Positions 3,380-12,303 of a stretch of 64,000 bases of DNA are shown here, in pieces (the stretch's first letter is position 1; each line of letters opens with the position of its first letter). The stretch is taken from the NCBI RefSeq assembly GCF_004403985.1, contig NZ_SOHL01000027.1, positions 186,373-250,372 on the forward strand. Reading direction: 5' to 3'. This stretch comes from Cryobacterium gelidum. Its GTDB lineage: Bacteria > Actinomycetota > Actinomycetes > Actinomycetales > Microbacteriaceae. The position numbers and the translations under genes were made by a program. The notes below the pieces were generated by a model. The model was given only the letters and a program-made list of their open reading frames with translations. It was not told where the DNA came from and ran no database searches.

Positions 3380-4015
3380 ATGAATGACATCCTCACCTGG
3401 ATCCTCGACACCGTCTCCGCCGTCGACCCGGTCATTCGAACGCTTCTGGCCTTCGTGGGCATGCTGCTGGAGACCTCGGTACTGGTGGGCTTAGTCGTTC
3501 CCGGCGACACGATCGTCATCGTGGCCAGCACGGCGGTAGCCAGCCCGGTCGAGTTCGTGACCCTCGTTCTGGCCGTGATCGTGGGCGCACTGGCCGGAGA
3601 GAGCATCGGTTTTGCCCTCGGACACCATTTCGGTCCGTTTATTCGGGGCAGCCGACTGGGCCGACGCATCGGCGAACACAACTGGATTCGCGCCGAGATC
3701 TATCTCGACCGGCGCGGCGGTGTCGCCGTATTCATCTCCCGGTTCTTACCGGTCTTGCACTCGCTCATTCCGGTCACTGTGGGTGCGAGTCGCATGCGCT
3801 ATCGCACCTTCATGGCCTGGACCGTTCCCGCCAGCATCCTCTGGTCCCTCGCCTACGTGAGCGTCGGGTCGGCGGCGGCCGGCGGTTACCGCGAGCTGAG
3901 TGGCCAGCTGCATTTTGCCGGTTATCTGTTCGTCGGGGCGATCGCCTTGTTCGTGCTCGCCGTGTTTCTGATCAAGAAGTGGCTGCACCGCCGCGAACTG
4001 CGCCACATGGACTGA
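3380..4015 (+). CDS. DedA/SNARE-associated family membrane protein
   Basis: 211-residue polytopic membrane protein of the DedA (VTT) family; members flip or scramble lipid carriers and phospholipids and support envelope homeostasis. Visible family features are a hydrophobic N-terminal half with LVVPGDTIVIVAS, the glycine-rich GALAGESIGFALGHHFG, and the signature FISRFLPVLHSLIPVTVGAS with its conserved Arg and Pro. A longer upstream frame is open, but the ATG at 3380 follows the -10 element directly and begins at the conserved N-terminus. The last 270 nt are overlapped on the other strand by the extended cydC frame. Confidence 0.9.
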   Translation: MNDILTWILDTVSAVDPVIRTLLAFVGMLLETSVLVGLVVPGDTIVIVASTAVASPVEFVTLVLAVIVGALAGESIGFALGHHFGPFIRGSRLGRRIGEHNWIRAEIYLDRRGGVAVFISRFLPVLHSLIPVTVGASRMRYRTFMAWTVPASILWSLAYVSVGSAAAGGYRELSGQLHFAGYLFVGAIALFVLAVFLIKKWLHRRELRHMD

Positions 4016-5743
4016 CCCGCTGGGTCGCGCCGATAATGTCACCCGCGCGGTCACGAGCTCGTCGGGCACCGGTGTGTGCGAGATGAGCAGTACCGCGCGG
4101 CGGGCGTCGGCCGCCGCGGTGAGGATATCGCGCACGAGGGCATCCGCGCCGCCACTATCGACGTTGGCGGTGGGTTCGTCGACGATGAGCACCGGAAAAT
4201 CGGCCAGCAGGGCACGCGCCAGCGCGATGCGCTGGGCCTGACCGCCGGAGATAAGCGCACCGCGCTCGCCCACACGGGCGTCGAGGCCGCCGCGCTGGGC
4301 GACCCAGTCGGCCAGTCCGACGCGGGCCAGCACAACGTCGAGTTCGGCATCGGTGGCGGTATCGCGGGCGAACAAGAGATTCTGACGGATGCTGTCATCA
4401 AACAACCAGGGGCGCTGCTCGCACAATCCAACCACCCGACGCACCTCGGTCTGGGTGAGCAGCCGCGCTTCGACCCCATTGAGCCGGTATGAGCCGGAGT
4501 AGTCGAGAAAGCGCACGAGGGTCTGGGCGAGAGTGGTCTTGCCGGCGCCACTCGGGCCGGCGAGGTGCACCCGGTCCCCCGGCGCCAGGCGCAGGGTCAC
4601 GCCGGCCACGCCGGGTTCGGATTGCCCCGGCCAGCGTGCGCCGAGATCGGTCAGTTCGAGCACGACTGGCAATGGGGCTGAGGCTGGCAACGCGTCTTGG
4701 TCTGCACTAAGGAGCGCTTGCGGGTGCCCAACGTCGACGGGAATCTCGGCGGGCGGCGACGCCGGAACGACACCGGCGACGCGCCGTGCGCTCACCCGCA
4801 CTTGACGCCAGGCAGAAGCGGCGAAGGGAATCATGCCGAACACCTCGAACACAGCCATCGGCACGAGCACGGCCACGACGAGAGTCGGGCCGAGCAGTAC
4901 CGGGCTGAGCAATCCGCCACCACTGGTGAGCGCGGGGATACCGAAGTAGAGCGCGCCGAGCGTTGCCGCACCGGCGAACAGGGACACGACGGCCGATTGC
5001 ACGCCGACCCCGACCGAGCGGCGCAGGGTGGCCCGGCGCAGGCGCGCATCGGTGCGCGCGAGCGCCACGAGACGCGGGCTGAGGGCGTCAAAGGCAGTGA
5101 GCACATCGAGGTTCTCGACGATTTCGAGTACCTCGTCGGCGAGGGCGCCACGCAAGGGTGCGAGCTCGCGGTCGGACCGTGCGGCCAGAGTGCCGGAGAA
5201 GACGGTGCCGAGAACTCCGGCCAGCAGCAAGCAGACGAGGAGGGTGAGCCCGGCGGCCGGGACGATCAGCCAGATGCCGACCACGCTGAGCAGGGCGGTG
5301 ATGCCAGCCACCAGGAGTGGTTGCACGACGCGCAACGGCAGGTCCTGCAGGTCATCGACATCGCGCACGAGGCGGGTGAGCAGGTCGCCGCGCCCGGTAC
5401 TCGCGAGCCCGGCCGGGGCCACCGGAACGATGCGACGAAAGATTCCCAGCCGCAGTTCGGCGAGCTGCCGGAACGCGGCATCGTGGCTGGTCAGCCGTTC
5501 CAGGTAGCGGAGCGCGGAGCGCCCAATCGCGAAGGCGCGCACCCCGACGATCGCCATGCCCAGAAACGCCAACGACGGCATATCGGCCGCGAAGGTGATC
5601 AACCAAGCCGAACAGGCCAGCAGCCCCACCGCCATGACGGCGCTCCCGATGCCGGCCAGCAGCCCGGGAACAAACCAGCGCTGCCGCGGCTGGGCGAGGC
5701 GCAGCACGTCTCGGGCAGCGCTGTCGAGCGTTGCGTCAGACAT
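3746..5743 (-). CDS. cydC: Thiol reductant ABC exporter subunit CydC with antisense C-terminal extension
   Basis: One half of the CydDC ABC exporter, which is needed for cytochrome bd assembly and exports cysteine/glutathione-type reductants. An ABC membrane domain spans about residues 20-310 and an ATPase domain about 360-560: Walker A GPSGAGKTT 396-404, signature SGGQ 499-502, Walker B VLIVDEP 518-524. The ABC domain is complete by about residue 570. The remaining ~90 codons run antisense through the 3' end of dedA and are low-complexity, so this tail is probably a lost-stop run-on rather than a domain. The ATG overlaps the cydD stop by 8 nt, implying coupled translation. Confidence 0.9.
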   Translation of the reverse strand: MSDATLDSAARDVLRLAQPRQRWFVPGLLAGIGSAVMAVGLLACSAWLITFAADMPSLAFLGMAIVGVRAFAIGRSALRYLERLTSHDAAFRQLAELRLGIFRRIVPVAPAGLASTGRGDLLTRLVRDVDDLQDLPLRVVQPLLVAGITALLSVVGIWLIVPAAGLTLLVCLLLAGVLGTVFSGTLAARSDRELAPLRGALADEVLEIVENLDVLTAFDALSPRLVALARTDARLRRATLRRSVGVGVQSAVVSLFAGAATLGALYFGIPALTSGGGLLSPVLLGPTLVVAVLVPMAVFEVFGMIPFAASAWRQVRVSARRVAGVVPASPPAEIPVDVGHPQALLSADQDALPASAPLPVVLELTDLGARWPGQSEPGVAGVTLRLAPGDRVHLAGPSGAGKTTLAQTLVRFLDYSGSYRLNGVEARLLTQTEVRRVVGLCEQRPWLFDDSIRQNLLFARDTATDAELDVVLARVGLADWVAQRGGLDARVGERGALISGGQAQRIALARALLADFPVLIVDEPTANVDSGGADALVRDILTAAADARRAVLLISHTPVPDELVTARVTLSARPSGSVHVAQFAAVQPLLDQKHGEHEQGDRPDEQITGKMQLATQLAVTAGRRRPDAHVGEGPEDAGGNGPGHEGAIAHATRTHSDRNERVQDR

Positions 5744-7421
5744 GACTCATCTCCTGCAGTTCCACCACGTGGTCTGCTGCGGCCACGACGGCCGGCCGGT
5801 GACTGACGACGATCACGACGCGACCCTGGTCGGCCAGATTGCGCAGCCCCGCGAGAAGACCGGCCTCAGCGTCGGAGTCCAGCGCTGAGCTCGGTTCGTC
5901 CAAAATCACCACGTGGCAATCGGTCGCGAGCACACGGTAGATGGCCCGCGCGGCGGCGACGCGTTGCGCCTGACCGCCGGAGAGCCCATCGCCGTTCACC
6001 CCGAGAACCGTGGCGGGTGACACCTCGGAGGCGCCCGCCCAGTCGAGCGCCTGCGCGACGAGGCCGTCGTCACGCAGGCCCTGGTTGGCAAAGACTGCCC
6101 CGAGCGACACATTCTCGGCCACCGTTCCTCGAAAAAGGCCAGGGCGCTGACCGGCCCAGGCCAGCCACGGCCTGGTCGCCCCGGCCGTGGCGGCCACGCC
6201 ACCAAGCGTCAGCTCACCGGTCATCGGGACGAAACCGAGCAGGGCGGCCACGAGGGTCGACTTCCCAACCCCGCTCACTCCGCGCACCACGCTCAGTTCC
6301 CCGGGTGCAAATTCCGCGTGCAGCTGGTCAATCACCACGGTGTTGCCACGTCGAACGGAAACGCCGGCCAGGCGAAGCGTGCCCGAACCGGAGCCGGGTT
6401 GCCCGGCGGGCTCCGTTTCACGTCCTGGCGCGAACTCGGCGGCATCCGCTGTCCCTGAAGCCGGTGCCGTGTCGTCATCGAGAATAGCGAACAACTCTTC
6501 GGCGGCGGCCAGGCCGTCGGCGGCGGCATGAAATTGGGCGCCGACCTGGCGCACCGGCAGAAATGCCTCCGGCGCGAGCAGCAACACGAACAGGCCCACA
6601 CCGAGCAGCAGCGCGCCGTCGATGAGCCGCAGGCCGATCGACACAGCGATGAGCGCGACCGAGAGGCTCGCTGCAAGCTCGAGCACGAAGCCGCTCAAGA
6701 ACGACACCCGGAGCACCTTCATGGTGCGGGCGCGGTACTGCTCGGTAATCGAGCGGATCAGCACGAACTGGCGTCGCTCGCGGCCATAGATCTTGAGGGT
6801 GCCCAGGCCACCGACCAGGTCGAGAAAACCGGTGGAGAGGCGTTGGAGCGCCTGCCACTGCTCCCGCTGCACCGATTGGGTGGCCCGGCCGATGAGAATC
6901 ATGAACACGGGAATGAGTGGGATCACGATGATGACTGTGAGGCCGCTGGCGAAGTCCTGCGAGAGGATGACCGCAATCAAAATGGGCGTCGCGATCATGG
7001 TCAGTAACAGTTGCGGCAGGTACCGGGCGAAGTAGTTGTCGAGAGCGTCAAGACCGGTGGTCACCACGGTGGACAGGCCCGCGCTCTGCCGGGAGGCGAC
7101 CCAGTCGGGGCCACGCTCGGCGAGCTTGGCCAGGACTCGGGCCCGCAACTGGCTCTTGACCTGGGCGGCGCCGCGGTTGGCCGAGACCTCGAGCAGCCAG
7201 ATGAGCGTGGAGCGCAGCACGATCACCCCGGCCAGAGCGACCAGGGTCGGCATGATCTCAGCGAGTGGCTCCCCCGCCACCGTCAGGGTGACGGCCCGGG
7301 TCAGCAGCCAGGCGAACGCGATAACGACGAGGGTTTGCGCAAGACCCAGCAGTGCGCCGATCAGAAGAAACCGGCGCGCTGCTTGAGCATATCGAAGAAG
7401 GCGAGGATCCAGAGGGCGCAC
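5736..7421 (-). CDS. cydD: Thiol reductant ABC exporter subunit CydD
   Basis: Partner of CydC in the heterodimeric ABC exporter for cytochrome bd assembly. It has a six-helix membrane domain, then an ATPase domain with Walker A SGVGKST, signature LSGGQAQRVAAARA and Walker B VVILDEP. The GTG at 7421 (protein begins VRPLDPRLLRYA, about 561 residues) sits four nt after the cydB stop and matches the usual CydD start; a TTG at 7445 would add eight residues and overlap cydB. The 3' end overlaps cydC by 8 nt. Gene order cydA-cydB-cydD-cydC is the same as in mycobacteria. Confidence 0.92.
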   Translation of the reverse strand: MRPLDPRLLRYAQAARRFLLIGALLGLAQTLVVIAFAWLLTRAVTLTVAGEPLAEIMPTLVALAGVIVLRSTLIWLLEVSANRGAAQVKSQLRARVLAKLAERGPDWVASRQSAGLSTVVTTGLDALDNYFARYLPQLLLTMIATPILIAVILSQDFASGLTVIIVIPLIPVFMILIGRATQSVQREQWQALQRLSTGFLDLVGGLGTLKIYGRERRQFVLIRSITEQYRARTMKVLRVSFLSGFVLELAASLSVALIAVSIGLRLIDGALLLGVGLFVLLLAPEAFLPVRQVGAQFHAAADGLAAAEELFAILDDDTAPASGTADAAEFAPGRETEPAGQPGSGSGTLRLAGVSVRRGNTVVIDQLHAEFAPGELSVVRGVSGVGKSTLVAALLGFVPMTGELTLGGVAATAGATRPWLAWAGQRPGLFRGTVAENVSLGAVFANQGLRDDGLVAQALDWAGASEVSPATVLGVNGDGLSGGQAQRVAAARAIYRVLATDCHVVILDEPSSALDSDAEAGLLAGLRNLADQGRVVIVVSHRPAVVAAADHVVELQEMSHV

Positions 7422-7425
7422 TGCC

Positions 7426-8430
7426 CTAGTGTACGGCGAGGTCAATGTGGGCCCGGCCGATGCGCTTGCGGAACACCCAGTAGGTCCAGCCCTGATAGAG
7501 CAGAATGACGGGCATACCGATCAGTGCCGTCCAGCTCATCACGCCGAGCGTGTAGGTCGACGAGGAAGCGTTCGCGATCGTCAGGCTGTTGGCCGGGTCG
7601 TTGCTGGCCGGCATGACGTCGGGAAACAATGACGAGAACAGGGTCAGTACGACGAGACCGATCGTGCCGGCCATCAGGGCGAATGCGAGACGTTCGGCGC
7701 CGCGCAGGTTGGCCAGGAACGATGCGATCAGCAGGGCAGCGGCCAGGGCGGCGAACAGAGCGGATACCACGGTGCCGTAGGCGAGCGTCGTCCAGGCCAG
7801 GAATGTGGCCGCGGCGACGATCGTCGCGAATCCAGCTTTCGTCGCTAGTTTGCGGGCCCGCATCCGGATGTCCCCCTCGGTCTTGAGCGACACGAACACC
7901 ACCCCGTGCACGAAGAACAGCAGCAGCGTCGCGACGCCGCCGAGCAGGGCATACGGGTTGAGCAGGTCGAAGATCGTTCCGACGTAGTCGTGGTTGGCGT
8001 TGAGCTTCACGCCTTGCACGATGTTGGCGAAGGCCACACCCCAGAGCAACGCCGGAACGGCCGAACCGACGATGATCAGGCCGTCGAACCATTTCTTCCA
8101 CACTGATTCGGGGCGCTGGTGCCGATATTCGAATGACACACCACGCAGGATCAGGGCCACCAGAATGAGCAGCAGTATCAGATAAAACCCGCTGAACATC
8201 GTCGCGTACCACTCGGGGAATGCCGCGAACAGCGACGCCCCTGCCACGATGACCCAGGTTTCGTTGAGGTCCCAAACCGGACCGATGGTGTTGATGAGAA
8301 CGCGGCGATCGGTGTCGTCTCTGCCGAGGAAAGGCAGGGACATACCGACCCCGAAGTCGAAGCCGTCGAGTACGAAGTACCCGATGAACATGAAAGCGAT
8401 GATCCAGAACCAAAGAATTGTGAGATCCAT
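7426..8430 (-). CDS. cydB: Cytochrome bd ubiquinol/menaquinol oxidase subunit II
   Basis: Membrane subunit II of the high-affinity bd oxidase, which with CydA reduces oxygen to water using quinol. 334 residues, beginning MDLTILWFWIIAFMF with the conserved YFVLDGFDFGVGM stretch near residue 20 and several hydrophobic helices to the end. A longer open frame extends to 8799 but overlaps cydA; the ATG at 8430 has a GGAG element upstream and begins at the family N-terminus. The gap to the cydA stop is 23 nt. Confidence 0.95.
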   Translation of the reverse strand: MDLTILWFWIIAFMFIGYFVLDGFDFGVGMSLPFLGRDDTDRRVLINTIGPVWDLNETWVIVAGASLFAAFPEWYATMFSGFYLILLLILVALILRGVSFEYRHQRPESVWKKWFDGLIIVGSAVPALLWGVAFANIVQGVKLNANHDYVGTIFDLLNPYALLGGVATLLLFFVHGVVFVSLKTEGDIRMRARKLATKAGFATIVAAATFLAWTTLAYGTVVSALFAALAAALLIASFLANLRGAERLAFALMAGTIGLVVLTLFSSLFPDVMPASNDPANSLTIANASSSTYTLGVMSWTALIGMPVILLYQGWTYWVFRKRIGRAHIDLAVH

Positions 8431-8453
8431 TGTGTATTCTCCGTAATCCCGTC

Positions 8454-9866
8454 CTAATAGACCGTGACAGCGTGCTGGTGTGCCCCGGATTCGGCGTCTT
8501 GAACCGGCGCATCGTCCGGGCCCTTCTGGACGGCCTTCAAAATGAGTTTGACCTCGACCACCGCGAGAGCACCGTACAGCAGGGTGAAGACGATCAACGA
8601 GATCAAAATCTCCACTCCGCTGACCCCGGGCGAGACGCCGTCCGCGGTGCGCATGAGTCCGAACACGAGCCAGGGCTGACGGCCCATCTCCGTGAAGACC
8701 CAACCGACGCTCATCGCGAGCAGGGAGAACGGAAAGCTCCAGATCGCGACCTTCCACACCCAGGTGCGCTTCGGGCTGCGCCCCCCACGGGTCAGCCACA
8801 GGCCGACGACGGCGACGAGCATGTGCGCGAGTCCGAGGCCGATCATCCAGCGGAACGCCCAGTAGGTGATCCAGATCGTGGGGGTGTAGTCGCCAGGGCC
8901 GTAGAGAGTGACGTACTGCGCCTGCAGGTTGTTGATGCCCTCGACTGTGCCGTCGAAGGTGTGGGTCGATAGAAAGGAGAGCAGGTACGGAATACGCACG
9001 GAGAACAGCTCTTGCACGCCGTCCGGCGTGCCCAGAGTGAAGACTGAGAAGCTTGCGTTGGCACCGGTTGCAGTGTGATAGAGCGCCTCGGCCGCGGCCA
9101 TCTTCATCGGTTGGGCGTCGACCATGGCCAGACCGAGCTGGTCACCGGCGAGCGTGGTGAGCACTCCGGCGATGACCATCATCCAGAGGCCGAACTTGAG
9201 TGCGGGACGCATCGTGTCGAGGTGCTGGTTGCGATAGAGGTGCCAGGCGGCTACCGAGATAATGAGTCCGGCAGACACCATGAAGCAGGCGAAAATCGTG
9301 TGCGGGAACGCGGCGAGAGCAATCGGGTTCGTGAGCAGGTCCCAGATGCTCGTGAGTTCGGCACGCCCCTTCTCCTCGTTGATCGTGTAGGCGACCGGAT
9401 TTTGCATGAACGCATTCGCGGCAAGAATGAAGTAGGCCGAGGTGATCGAGCCGATCACGGTCAACCAGATCGTGCCCAGGTGAATCTTTTTGGGCAGTTT
9501 GTCCCAGCCGAAGATCCACAGTCCGATGAACGTCGCCTCGAGAAAGAACGCGACGATGCCCTCAAAGGCGAGCGGAGCGCCGAAGACGTCACCGACGAAA
9601 CGCGAGTAGTCCGACCAGTTCATGCCGAACTGAAATTCCTGAACGATTCCGGTCACAACGCCCATGGCGACGTTGATGAGAAAGATCTTGCCGAAGAAGT
9701 GCGTCAGCTGCAGGTATCTTGCCTTATCCGTGCGCACCCAGGCCGACTGGAAGATCGCGACAGTGAGCGCCAAGCCGATCGTCAGTGGGACGAACAAAAA
9801 ATGGTACATGGTCGTGAGACCGAACTGCCACCGTGAGAGGAGTAAAGGATCCAACCACTCGTTCAT
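8454..9866 (-). CDS. cydA: Cytochrome bd quinol oxidase subunit I
   Basis: Catalytic, haem-carrying subunit of cytochrome bd. 470 residues starting MNEWLDPLLLSRWQFGLTTMYHFLFV; the early His lies in the conserved RWQFG-MYHFLFVPLTIG segment. The Q-loop region is short, as in Gram-positive CydA, and GRQPW appears near residue 395. The ATG at 9866 has GGAGG just upstream; an in-frame start at 9899 would add 11 residues but has no ribosome site. First gene of cydABDC. Its upstream region carries a twin palindrome facing a BlaI-family gene, so expression is probably BlaI-repressed (inference). Confidence 0.96.
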   Translation of the reverse strand: MNEWLDPLLLSRWQFGLTTMYHFLFVPLTIGLALTVAIFQSAWVRTDKARYLQLTHFFGKIFLINVAMGVVTGIVQEFQFGMNWSDYSRFVGDVFGAPLAFEGIVAFFLEATFIGLWIFGWDKLPKKIHLGTIWLTVIGSITSAYFILAANAFMQNPVAYTINEEKGRAELTSIWDLLTNPIALAAFPHTIFACFMVSAGLIISVAAWHLYRNQHLDTMRPALKFGLWMMVIAGVLTTLAGDQLGLAMVDAQPMKMAAAEALYHTATGANASFSVFTLGTPDGVQELFSVRIPYLLSFLSTHTFDGTVEGINNLQAQYVTLYGPGDYTPTIWITYWAFRWMIGLGLAHMLVAVVGLWLTRGGRSPKRTWVWKVAIWSFPFSLLAMSVGWVFTEMGRQPWLVFGLMRTADGVSPGVSGVEILISLIVFTLLYGALAVVEVKLILKAVQKGPDDAPVQDAESGAHQHAVTVY

Positions 9867-9882: not shown

Positions 9883-9888
9883 TTAATA
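9883..9888 (-). promoter_or_regulatory. Candidate extended -10 of cydA
   Basis: On the minus strand the sequence reads TGG-TATTAA, an extended -10 type element about 16 nt before the cydA ATG. A 17-nt spacer places the -35 region inside the first palindrome (9902-9918), so a bound repressor would block it. Spacing-based inference. Confidence 0.4.
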
Positions 9889-9901
9889 CCAGCGCACACT
9901 T

Positions 9902-9918
9902 TTCTACGCTGTGTAGAA
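9902..9918. promoter_or_regulatory. Palindromic operator, copy 1 (cydA side)
   Basis: Perfect dyad TTCTAC-gctgt-GTAGAA. Its CTAC/GTAG arms resemble the TAC...GTA cores of BlaI/MecI-type operators. It overlaps the expected -35 region of cydA. Confidence 0.75.
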
Positions 9919-9925
9919 GATTACG

Positions 9926-9944
9926 CTTCTACGCTGTGTAGAAG
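9926..9944. promoter_or_regulatory. Palindromic operator, copy 2 (blaI side)
   Basis: Second copy of the same dyad with the same 5-nt spacer and one more paired base, CTTCTAC-gctgt-GTAGAAG. The two copies are 25 bp apart in direct register. This copy overlaps the expected -35 of the blaI-like gene, whose -10 TACTAT is at 9961-9966. Confidence 0.75.
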
Positions 9945-9960
9945 TCTCAGTTTCGGGGCG

Positions 9961-9966
9961 TACTAT
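9961..9966 (+). promoter_or_regulatory. Candidate -10 of the blaI-like gene
   Basis: TACTAT fits TANNNT and ends seven nt before the ATG at 9974, which suggests a leaderless mRNA and decides between the ATG codons at 9965 and 9974. Confidence 0.5.
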
Positions 9967-9973
9967 GGATTGC

Positions 9974-10360
9974 ATGGGATCTTTGGGTGTGCTCGAGAGG
10001 CTGATGATGGATGTCCTGTGGGACTCCCCGACATCGTTGACGGCCAACGAACTCAGGCAGTCCCTGCTCAATCGCGACATTGCGTCCGCGCGACCGAAGC
10101 CCCTTGCGACGACGACCGTCTTGACGGTGCTGTCCAGGCTCGAAACGAAGGGCTTCGTCACCCGCGACCGCAGCGTTCGGCCCCACGCTTATACCGCCCT
10201 CATGACCCGGGCCGCTCACACGGCCGGCCTTATGCACGACGTGCTCGAGCAAGTACCCGACCGTCAAGCGGCACTGGTGCGCTTCATCGGAGGCGTCAGC
10301 CCCGAGGAGGCAGAGACCCTTCGCCAGCTGCTCGGCGTCGCAACGTCCGACAACTCCTAA
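9974..10360 (+). CDS. BlaI/MecI/CopY-family transcriptional repressor
   Basis: 128-residue winged-helix repressor of the penicillinase-repressor family. The N-terminus MGSLGVLERLMMDVLW matches the usual BlaI opening (SLG-LE--VMDVLW); TTTVLTVLSRLETKGFV is the recognition helix and wing, followed by a short C-terminal dimerisation part. An ATG at 9965 would add three residues. The adjacent M56 gene is the usual partner that relieves such repressors by proteolysis. It is divergent from cydABDC with two identical palindromes between, so it likely represses itself and perhaps cytochrome bd. The ligand or signal is not visible. Confidence 0.9.
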   Translation: MGSLGVLERLMMDVLWDSPTSLTANELRQSLLNRDIASARPKPLATTTVLTVLSRLETKGFVTRDRSVRPHAYTALMTRAAHTAGLMHDVLEQVPDRQAALVRFIGGVSPEEAETLRQLLGVATSDNS

Positions 10361-10378: not shown

Positions 10379-11368
10379 GTGATCACCGCCTCCGCCCTGC
10401 TCGGGGCCATCGCCGTGCTGCTCGCCTGGCCGGTGCCGCTGGCGCTGGCCCGATCACACTGGCCGGCCCGCTCCCCCGGCGTGGCACTCGTGCTGTGGCA
10501 AGCCATCGCCCTGTCCGGCGGTATTTCGATGATCGGCTCATTGCTGCTCTATGGCCTCATTCCCTTCGGCAGCCCCCTGAGGCAGGGCATCGTCGCCCTC
10601 GGCGGCGATCTTCGAACCGGCACTCTTCCGTCCGGCACGAGTTTCACCCACGTGCTCGCCCTGGGCGCTGCCCTTTTGCTCGGCACTCACCTGCTGCTGA
10701 ATCTGCTCGCGACCTTCGTTCGCGCCGAACGGCAACGCCGCCGGCACCACACCCTCATCACTCTGCTCAGCGATCCCCTGAACGGCCAGCCGGGAATGCG
10801 GGTCATCGACCATCCAGCGCCGGTCGCCTATTGCCTTCCCGGAGCCGGGCATTCGGCAACGGTTCTTTCGAATGGGCTGCTCCGACTGCTCGATGCCGAC
10901 CAACTACGCGCAGTGATCGCGCACGAACAGGCCCACCTCGTGCAACAGCACCACCTGGTATTGCTCGCCTTCAAGAGCTGGCACAGCGCGCTGCCGTGGT
11001 TTCCCATCGCCAATCGCGCCGAAAACGCCGTCGCTCTGCTGGTGGAGATGCTCGCCGACGACTACGCCCGCCGAGTCGTCGACGATCACACCCTCGCCCG
11101 CGCGATCGCGCTGGTGGGCTTCGCCCTGGCCGGTTTTGCCCCGAAACGCACGAGTGAAGCGGATGCGCTGGCTCCCGCCGCCGCATCCGCTTCCCTCACC
11201 CACGAGGTAGTGTCTGCCAAACCCGAGCATCCGGCGTATCAGGTGATGCCCCGCGTGGCACGGCTGGTCAACCCGGTCCAGCCGCTGCGCCACGCGGCCA
11301 CGGCCGGAGCTCTTACCGTGTCGGCGATGCTCCTGGCCGGGCCGGCGCTCATTCTGTTCGCGGCTTAG
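10379..11368 (+). CDS. M56-family (BlaR-like) membrane metalloprotease
   Basis: 329-residue polytopic membrane protein with a zinc-protease motif HEQAH at residues 182-186 and hydrophobic segments at about 1-22, 33-60, 92-112 and 305-328. It lacks the large extracellular penicillin-sensor domain of staphylococcal BlaR1. By family analogy it degrades or inactivates the adjacent BlaI-type repressor on a membrane signal. The start is GTG at 10379, 18 nt after the repressor stop, so the two form an operon. Its stop is 11 nt from the convergent osmoprotectant-binding protein gene. Confidence 0.88.
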   Translation: MITASALLGAIAVLLAWPVPLALARSHWPARSPGVALVLWQAIALSGGISMIGSLLLYGLIPFGSPLRQGIVALGGDLRTGTLPSGTSFTHVLALGAALLLGTHLLLNLLATFVRAERQRRRHHTLITLLSDPLNGQPGMRVIDHPAPVAYCLPGAGHSATVLSNGLLRLLDADQLRAVIAHEQAHLVQQHHLVLLAFKSWHSALPWFPIANRAENAVALLVEMLADDYARRVVDDHTLARAIALVGFALAGFAPKRTSEADALAPAAASASLTHEVVSAKPEHPAYQVMPRVARLVNPVQPLRHAATAGALTVSAMLLAGPALILFAA

Positions 11369-11379
11369 AACCGTTTCAG

Positions 11380-12303
11380 CTAGAGCAACTTCTCCTGGGT
11401 CAGCCAGGCCGTCGCGATCTTGTCGGCCGAGAGCTTGTCGTTGACGCTCTGCGAATTCAACTCGACCAGAGAGTCGGCCGTCAGTGCCGCACTGACCTTG
11501 TTGAGAATCCCCGCCGCGCTGTCATCGACCTTCTTGGAGACGACGGGCACGACGTTGTCCGGAAAGAACAGTCCGTCAGGGTCGGAGAGGGCGACCAGAT
11601 TGTCGGTCTTGATGTTCGGGTTGGCCGTGTAGATGTTAGCGAGCTGGATGTCGCCGTCGACGAGCGCCTTCACGGTCAGCGGTCCGCCGCTGTCCTCGAC
11701 CGGCACGAACCCGGCGATGTCAATTCCGTACTTCTCCTTCAAGGCAGTCGGCCCGTACGGACGGGTCTCCAGCTCTGAATTACCGCCGACGGTGATCGGT
11801 TCGGTGACGTTGGTCAGGGAGGCTACGTCGGTGAGGTTATACTTGCTCGCGAAAGCACCGGTGACGGTCCAGGAGTTCTGATCGGAGGCGTCCGCCTTGT
11901 CGAGAACCCGGAGGTTGTCGGGCAGGGCCGCCTGGAGTTCTGCGTAGGCCGCGTCACTGGTGCCACCGACGGCGTTCTTGTCGAGGGCCTGCAGAAGGCT
12001 CCCGGTGTATTCCGGGAAGACATCGATCTTGCCGCTTTCGATGTCGGGCAGGTAGACCTCGCGCTGACCGATCTGGAACTGTCGATCGACGGTGAAGCCA
12101 CCGGCTTCAAGTGCCTGGGAGTAAATTTCGGCGATGATCTCGTTGGAGTAATACGCCTGCGACCCGACCACGATGGTCGACCCGGCGGCACCACTCGACG
12201 GTTCCGCCAGGGGATCCCCCGACGCACACCCTGCGAGGGCTACGACGGCCCCAACCGCGACGGCGCCAATGAGCGTGAGTCGGCCTCTATGTGCTGTGAA
12301 CAT
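11380..12303 (-). CDS. Osmoprotectant (glycine betaine/choline) ABC transporter substrate-binding lipoprotein
   Basis: 307-residue extracytoplasmic solute receptor of the OpuBC/OsmF/ProX class. The signal peptide ends in lipobox LAGC with Cys26 as lipidation site; the mature part opens TIVVGSQAYYSNEIIAEIY and has the family stretch GKIDVFPEYTGSLLQAL. Last gene of the four-gene importer; its ATG at 12303 lies inside the permease gene (17-nt overlap). The substrate is inferred from family and operon; aromatic cage residues were not checked. Confidence 0.9.
   Translation of the reverse strand: MFTAHRGRLTLIGAVAVGAVVALAGCASGDPLAEPSSGAAGSTIVVGSQAYYSNEIIAEIYSQALEAGGFTVDRQFQIGQREVYLPDIESGKIDVFPEYTGSLLQALDKNAVGGTSDAAYAELQAALPDNLRVLDKADASDQNSWTVTGAFASKYNLTDVASLTNVTEPITVGGNSELETRPYGPTALKEKYGIDIAGFVPVEDSGGPLTVKALVDGDIQLANIYTANPNIKTDNLVALSDPDGLFFPDNVVPVVSKKVDDSAAGILNKVSAALTADSLVELNSQSVNDKLSADKIATAWLTQEKLL

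Follow-up and report, generated by a model that had tools for sequence, protein, structure and literature searches.

In Staphylococcus aureus, the BlaI-BlaR1 and MecI-MecR1 systems each combine a repressor with a membrane zinc protease and are autoregulated. A counterpart of such pairs is found in Mycobacterium tuberculosis, for which the accessible part of one article reports that cytochrome bd, ATP synthase and blaC all have promoters bound by BlaI (PMC5473688, citing Sala et al. 2009), that mycobacterial BlaR has no extracellular sensor, and that blaR-blaI and cydAB rise on amoxicillin/clavulanate; the same text states that how the sensor-less BlaR of M. tuberculosis produces a response is unknown (PMC5473688). 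In the portions available to us, other articles describe BlaI binding at the promoter of the gene that heads the ATP synthase operon, with a lowered transcript upon overexpression in M. smegmatis (PMC12565901), list BlaI among the regulators of this operon (PMC5874750), and tie M. tuberculosis BlaI-BlaR to blaC and sigC (PMC8265638). Among the matches listed in our search of the open literature, none reported such a BlaI-protease pair outside mycobacteria.

Here, we describe a locus from the actinobacterial genus Cryobacterium in which a BlaI-type repressor and a membrane protease stand divergent to the genes of cytochrome bd. The initial annotation of this DNA had presented the locus as the best candidate for an undescribed system, which was too strong a wording, as the link of BlaI with cytochrome bd and the sensor-less BlaR are already in print for M. 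tuberculosis. The principle, with BlaI acting on cytochrome bd and ATP synthase, was therefore already known, and the locus appears to be a variant of it.

The cydABDC-blaI locus, its promoters and its proteins

The window (the whole stretch of DNA that was analysed, 64,000 nucleotides) contains two exact copies of the palindrome TTCTAC-gctgt-GTAGAA, with 18 identical bases each and a start-to-start distance of 25 bp. Both this observation and the gene setting first proposed for it were confirmed, with CydA, CydB, CydD and CydC encoded on the minus strand and a BlaI-type repressor and a zinc protease on the plus strand. The features of the locus are the following:

3746..5743, minus strand: cydC (TIGR02868 above cut-off)
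5736..7445, minus strand: cydD (TIGR02857 above cut-off)
7426..8508, minus strand: cydB (PF02322, E 5e-107; TIGR00203 above cut-off; start codon provisional)
8454..9866, minus strand: cydA (PF01654, E 2e-161)
9902..9918, no strand: putative operator copy 1, an exact match to TTCTAC-N5-GTAGAA that covers the predicted cydA -10/start region
9918..9923, minus strand: predicted cydA -10 (TAATCT), located between copies 1 and 2 and touching copy 1
9927..9943, no strand: putative operator copy 2, same sequence as copy 1, with its right arm GTAGAA (9938-9943) at the predicted blaI -35
9961..9966, plus strand: predicted blaI -10, TACTAT, 17 nt past copy 2
9974..10360, plus strand: blaI, BlaI/MecI-type repressor (PF03965, E 2e-19; the first ATG according to the ORF caller is at 9965)
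10379..11368, plus strand: M56/M48-like membrane zinc protease of 329 aa (HEQAH at residues 182-186, E223; no sensor domain)

On the 3' side of the protease gene, a convergent gene (11380-12303) encodes an OpuAC-type osmoprotectant-binding protein (PF04069), with transporter-like frames beyond it.

The two palindromes were the only matches in the window even when up to two mismatches were allowed; at this threshold, shuffled windows yielded a mean of 0.47 matches and reached two in 8 out of 100 cases. The complete 3.47-Mb genome holds three exact palindromes, namely the two copies and one upstream of hmp, compared with ~0.03 expected for a genome of this size from base composition and with a single occurrence of the backward-read control pattern. 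With zero mismatches, the putative targets in this genome are only cyd, blaI-M56 and hmp. A one-mismatch site elsewhere in the genome (L004) is located inside long open frames, and the two-mismatch sites, being fewer than those of the backward control (54 versus 110), were treated as noise.

A scan of the region for consensus sigma-70 promoters returned none on either strand. On the blaI side, 45 of 51 Cryobacterium loci have a TANNNT hexamer 17 or 18 nt past the last site, which is followed by an ATG 6-8 nt further on in 44 of these 45. The right arm GTAGAA therefore stands at the position expected for the -35 of blaI, such that, judging from sequence, the promoter of blaI itself contains the palindrome at its -35 in these loci, and the blaI transcript is probably leaderless and starts at the ATG at 9974. 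On the cydA side, a TANNNT hexamer is found 5-40 nt past copy 1 in only one of the 51 loci. In 43 of them, this motif instead lies in the gap between the copies and runs up to and including the base of copy 1 that comes first as read from cydA. This gap is 8 bp long in 42 of the 51 loci, and 18 of its 24 distinct sequences carry the hexamer, against a mean of 2.1 and a maximum of 7 in 500 shuffles. Copy 1 and copy 2 had originally been assigned to the -35 elements of cydA and blaI, respectively. The assignment of copy 2 agrees with the 45 loci above, but we reject that of copy 1 on the conservation of TANNNT in the gap and its near absence (1/51) from the claimed position. Copy 1 would instead cover the predicted -10 and start of cydA, and copy 2 would provide the -35 of blaI and adjoin the -35 position of cydA, an arrangement that fits the repression of both operons.

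The repressor matches the Penicillinase_R profile (PF03965) with 70.3 bits, well above the cut-off of 22.6, and is the only protein in the genome to do so. Its nearest relative of solved structure is BlaI of M. tuberculosis (2g9w; phmmer E 1.5e-14, profile E 2.8e-28). Firmicute BlaI/MecI operators have the core TACA-N2-TGTA, that is, TAC-N4-GTA. The sites described here do not match this spacing and have TAC-N5-GTA, also present in actinobacterial relatives from other orders; this is a different operator and not a loss of BlaI/MecI membership, which rests on the protein. CopY/TcrY repressors belong to the same winged-helix superfamily, and the copper repressors of the CopY type possess a C-terminal CxC metal-binding motif. 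A CopY identity was ruled out, as the NCBIfam match is weak (25 bits for a cut-off of 122) and the sole cysteine of the repressor is C3 of its longest reading, leaving it without a metal-binding CxC tail. We assign the repressor to the BlaI/MecI family and regard the protease as BlaR1-like in its working parts but not as a penicillin sensor of the BlaR1 type.

In the protease, H182, E183, H186 and E223, which constitute the HExxH motif and a downstream Glu, are invariant in all 27 aligned relatives. Its structural model (mean pLDDT 83) ends with a last helix at residues 305-328 and aligns best to S. aureus BlaR1 (8exs) with a Z score of 11.1 and an rmsd of 5.9 over 217 residues (5-287 of the model), a score practically tied with that of ZMPSTE24 (Z 10.0); a Foldseek search with the model gave no PDB match below E 0.001. 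BlaR1 chains (539-556 aa) align to the protease only up to about residue 300. The absence of the penicillin-sensor domain noted in the first description was thereby verified, since the protein ends where the BlaR1 sensor would begin. Its M56 label is fair by fold, although the Pfam Peptidase_M56 profile (PF05569) is unmatched and the M48 profile (PF01435) is matched; a relative (L251) reached 20.8 bits with PF05569, below the cut-off of 31.

These properties bear on the possibility that BlaI binds the sites without being cleaved by the M56-like protein, whose signalling would have been lost or whose substrate would be a different one, in which case BlaI would be governed by a ligand or by its own level. 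Besides the unmatched Pfam M56 model and the match to M48, this possibility draws on the sequence at the MecI/BlaI cleavage site, located at an Asn-Phe position: only the Phe is shared there by our repressor (F107, invariant in 18/18), with an Arg before it instead of Asn. Nevertheless, the invariance of the catalytic residues in the 27 relatives, the occurrence of the protease gene at all the 80 best named blaI loci and the predicted BlaR1-like fold across the membrane and protease parts of the model make a non-cleaving protease fairly unlikely. In our view, the protease probably relieves the repression exerted by BlaI.

Conservation of the sites and their association with BlaI

Exact sites were detected in 55 of the 57 Cryobacterium genomes, with a total of 143 copies compared with 43 for the backward control. 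We examined 51 blaI loci from the 55 genomes of the genus that possess BlaI, and cydA adjoins blaI in every one. These loci have two exact copies in 38 cases, three in nine and one in four; if up to one mismatch is allowed, all 51 contain at least two. The copies are spaced by 24-26 bp in 52 of 56 cases, 42 of which correspond to exactly 25 bp. The constancy of the palindrome arms is a consequence of the search pattern and not a finding, and the five centre bases vary, with 51 different centres among 107 sites. The palindromes and the cydA-blaI adjacency, which had been proposed as the features to look for in relatives, are thus both conserved together with the gene pair.

A BlaI orthologue is present in 55 of the 57 genomes and absent only from G071 and G028, which are also the only two Cryobacterium genomes without any exact site. 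Since the sites track the presence and absence of BlaI, this protein is the best candidate binder, and we consider it highly probable that it binds the palindromes. A different binder might be suspected from the third exact site of the genome, which stands between hmp and the NsrR-like (Rrf2) gene located just upstream of it. Cytochrome bd and Hmp are both nitric oxide (NO)-tolerance genes, and the sites could belong to this NsrR-like regulator, with blaI-M56 as a mere target. However, the NsrR-like gene has no match in 21 of the 57 genomes of the genus (one more has a weak match, E 4.5e-4), and 20 of these 21 keep exact sites and have BlaI; the exception, G028, is also devoid of BlaI. Conversely, G071 has the NsrR-like gene and hmp, yet neither BlaI nor the site. 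The expectation that sites occur only together with NsrR thus failed in 20 genomes and in G071 and, because those 20 genomes keep sites without a detectable NsrR-like gene, we reject this regulator as the binder and regard its ownership of the sites as very improbable.

The hmp promoters themselves contain a different element that fits NsrR. A separate conserved block, AATGCTActTTT, which resembles the NsrR operator, was present in 30 out of 30 Cryobacterium hmp promoters read (L065-L094), a count that describes the hmp listing from which the block was derived and is not an independent test; an earlier pattern, GCAT-N4..6-ATGC, had matched 13 of 33 hmp loci (G071 counted twice). The TTCTAC site accompanies the AATGCTActTTT block in 23 of the 30 promoters, always at 18 nt from it, and six of the seven genomes whose hmp promoter is without the site keep BlaI. 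The block is probably the NsrR operator and, since it occurs separately from the TTCTAC site in hmp promoters, hmp seems to carry two operators, one per regulator, that is, to be dual-controlled.

The association of BlaI with the sites was also observed outside the genus. In a 61-genome sample of the family that contains Arthrobacter (f6), 56 genomes had sites (284 copies versus 24 for the backward control) and the five genomes without sites also lacked this BlaI, the presence of BlaI having been checked in part of the 56 site-bearing genomes. Within genera g161 and g167, two genomes (G527 and G512) have BlaI and a site upstream of blaI and three (G485, G505 and G491) have neither. Three f6 genomes depart from this rule with a single exact site each: G244, in which BlaI is absent, and G489 and G509, whose only BlaI is distant (E ~1e-19) and has no exact site before its gene. 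These single sites may be due to chance, be relics or serve another regulator. In a mixed set of 41 genomes of the order, 20 have a close BlaI and sites were found in 17 of these; no sites were found in the three genomes with only a distant BlaI or in the 18 without one. Among the genomes with a close BlaI and no exact site, G283 and G227 have sites with one mismatch, and G042, with a good BlaI, has no site with up to two mismatches in the 250 nt before blaI. G139, which is among the 17, possesses BlaI and a single exact site elsewhere, with none in the 6 kb around blaI.

We read 28 blaI loci in the order outside Cryobacterium; an exact site lies no more than 260 nt upstream in 26 of them, and cydA is adjacent in 27. 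The site is kept before blaI at loci where cydA was not found adjacent (L102, in which blaI-M56 is present, L210 and L273). Among the best 80 named loci, 33 of which belong to Cryobacterium and the rest mainly to Arthrobacter, Pseudarthrobacter, Agromyces, Mycetocola and their kin, cydA lies within 2.5 kb in 79, an exact site is present in 79 and the protease in all 80. CydA shows ~45% identity to that of the window at the loci read in families f6 and f7 and genus g24, and ~75% in genus g23, with unchanged layout; the blaI-cyd arrangement has thus been kept across two quite different CydA lineages. At the class level, 126 of 196 genomes gave a match to the BlaI profile, distant relatives included. 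Twenty loci from other orders were read: six have a clear cydA (53-56% identity) beside blaI, and five more have a weak cydA match (27-44%). Those six (L318, L319, L320, L324, L325 and L326) possess cydA, blaI, the protease and TACTAC-N5-GTAGTA-like repeats, hinting that the outer bases of the operator changed by lineage; another locus from a different order (L312) has three exact TTCTAC sites. Given the clear cydA beside blaI in other orders, the BlaI-cyd link seems to extend past the order studied here.

Genes at sites away from the cyd locus

In addition to the conservation of the sites, their promoter position and their link to BlaI, the comparative evidence covers the kind of genes that these putative operators precede. 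Away from cyd-blaI, we inspected 44 loci with a site, distributed over 15 genomes; 41 are the sites of this kind in the 17 site-bearing genomes of the mixed set, and three come from Cryobacterium and were chosen for not being at hmp. Labels were obtained from Pfam, NCBIfam or tblastn, and ~30 proteins were scanned at these loci. Genes of respiration, heme, NO, copper/heme insertion, Fe-S or linked metabolism were recognised at 27 of the 44. They comprise hemQ (seven loci), qcrC (two), hmp (two), a fused CydDC (two), adhE (three, all in Cryobacterium), sdhC (where a second gene diverges), ctaC (opposite an ErpA-like gene), ctaB (heme o synthase), SURF1, ctaG/CopD, CopC, isocitrate lyase, YceI and TlpA-CcdA loci (three) and a SufR-like regulator, named from its HTH match and position. 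The sites before hmp in Cryobacterium and before hemQ, qcrC, ctaC, ctaB and SURF1 in Arthrobacter-type genomes point to a regulon of respiration and heme. At six of the seven hemQ loci in f6, the distance from the end of the site to an in-frame ATG is 44-46 nt, a constant place near the presumed promoter; at the seventh, the site ends 129 nt before a GTG.

Some genomes and loci showed particular arrangements. In genus g43, G124 and G510 have 15 and 13 exact sites, respectively; those of G124 (L186-L199 and L210) include sdh, cta, ctaB, SURF1 and isocitrate lyase loci, and its blaI (L210) comes after a gyrA-like reading instead of cydA. In two genomes of genus g24 (L169 and L170), the fused cydDC gene, situated ~5 kb away from blaI, is directly preceded by a site of its own. 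In three Cryobacterium genomes (L207, L208 and L209), an exact site precedes adhE, which encodes a fermentation enzyme; this position fits a response to failing respiration.

No recognised respiratory gene adjoins the site at the remaining 17 loci. A small membrane protein is common to four of them (L174, at 2108-2509, L177, L187 and L204), the operator being thus present next to it in four genomes, and a second one is common to two loci in two genomes (L178, at 2130-2474, and L200). The members of both families that were scanned had no Pfam or NCBIfam match. Their position at the same operator makes these two families new candidates for oxidase or heme assembly factors. A pyridoxamine-oxidase-like gene is found at L175 and L194, and nine further loci carry no label, including those of a globin-like protein without Pfam match (L184) and of a protein with a weak CopC match (L191).

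This set of genes has to be weighed against the possibility that BlaI binds the sites as part of an ordinary beta-lactam response, in which wall damage would activate the protease and cytochrome bd would belong to an antibiotic-tolerance programme. The best-known members of the family do answer beta-lactams, and the increase of blaR-blaI and cydAB on amoxicillin/clavulanate in M. tuberculosis, as given in the accessible part of PMC5473688, goes in the same direction. However, the protease described here has no penicillin-sensor domain, and no beta-lactamase was present among the seven neighbour proteins scanned at the window locus or recognised at the 44 other site loci (17 of them unlabelled, ~30 proteins scanned). 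We consequently see a beta-lactam response as quite unlikely.

Proposed mechanism and comparison with known systems

Binding of BlaI, a repressing and not an activating effect, its cleavage by the protease and the nature of the signal are what we infer from the comparative data. With good confidence, the palindromes are likely to be operators of the adjacent BlaI, through which the repressor-protease pair would control cydABDC, blaI-M56 and hmp. With a BlaI dimer on copy 2, both the -35 of the blaI-M56 operon and the upstream portion of the cydA promoter would be covered; a dimer on copy 1 would overlie the -10 and start point of cydA, such that the occupancy of both copies would switch off cydABDC and blaI-M56. 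That BlaI represses cydABDC and itself appears very likely. BlaI would also act on hmp through the third site of the genome. The membrane protease would sense trouble and inactivate BlaI, which would release cytochrome bd, the CydDC assembly exporter and the NO-detoxifying flavohemoprotein. Membrane or wall stress had been suggested as a possible signal in the initial annotation. As the target genes point to impaired respiration, heme supply or NO as the signal, we give about even chances to a natural signal consisting of respiratory, heme or NO trouble and not of beta-lactams.

A more general proposal, which we put forward tentatively and at somewhat less than even chances, is that the sensor-less BlaI-M56 pair of Actinomycetes is at its root a regulator of respiration and heme supply, the control of beta-lactamase being a later or side use. 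In this scenario, the membrane helices of the protease might directly sense the condition of the respiratory membrane (its quinone, heme or proton-motive state), leading to a joint release of cytochrome bd, NO defence, heme synthesis and oxidase assembly. The conserved regulon would offer a testable answer, in harmless bacteria of soil and cold habitats, to the puzzle of the sensor-less BlaR, namely trouble with respiration, heme supply or nitric oxide, and the operator motif lets the BlaI regulon be read from related genomes. Among the literature matches listed, we have not seen in print the tandem cydA-blaI operator, its tie to BlaI via natural losses, the dual-controlled hmp or the Arthrobacter-type heme and respiration regulon.

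Several known systems resemble parts of this one. In the accessible text on HrrSA of Corynebacterium glutamicum (PMC7337898), one regulator serves terminal oxidase and heme genes, but it is part of a two-component system. Similarly, the text available for Chromobacterium violaceum (PMC11837568) describes a local repressor of an NO-resistance bd oxidase, in that case from a different regulator family, MarR. With the BlaI-BlaR1 and MecI-MecR1 systems of S. aureus, our locus shares a repressor that aligns to MecI and a protease whose model aligns to BlaR1 (Z 11.1 over 217 residues), but the protease lacks the C-terminal penicillin-binding sensor and the recognised targets are respiratory instead of blaZ or mecA. 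M. tuberculosis BlaI-BlaR (Rv1846c-Rv1845c), as far as the available parts of the sources describe it, is similar in having the closest solved BlaI, a sensor-less BlaR and a cytochrome bd promoter among its targets. The Cryobacterium pair differs from it in having no adjacent beta-lactamase, in standing divergent to cydABDC with tandem operators in between, and in belonging to a system whose sites reach hmp, heme and bc1/aa3 genes.
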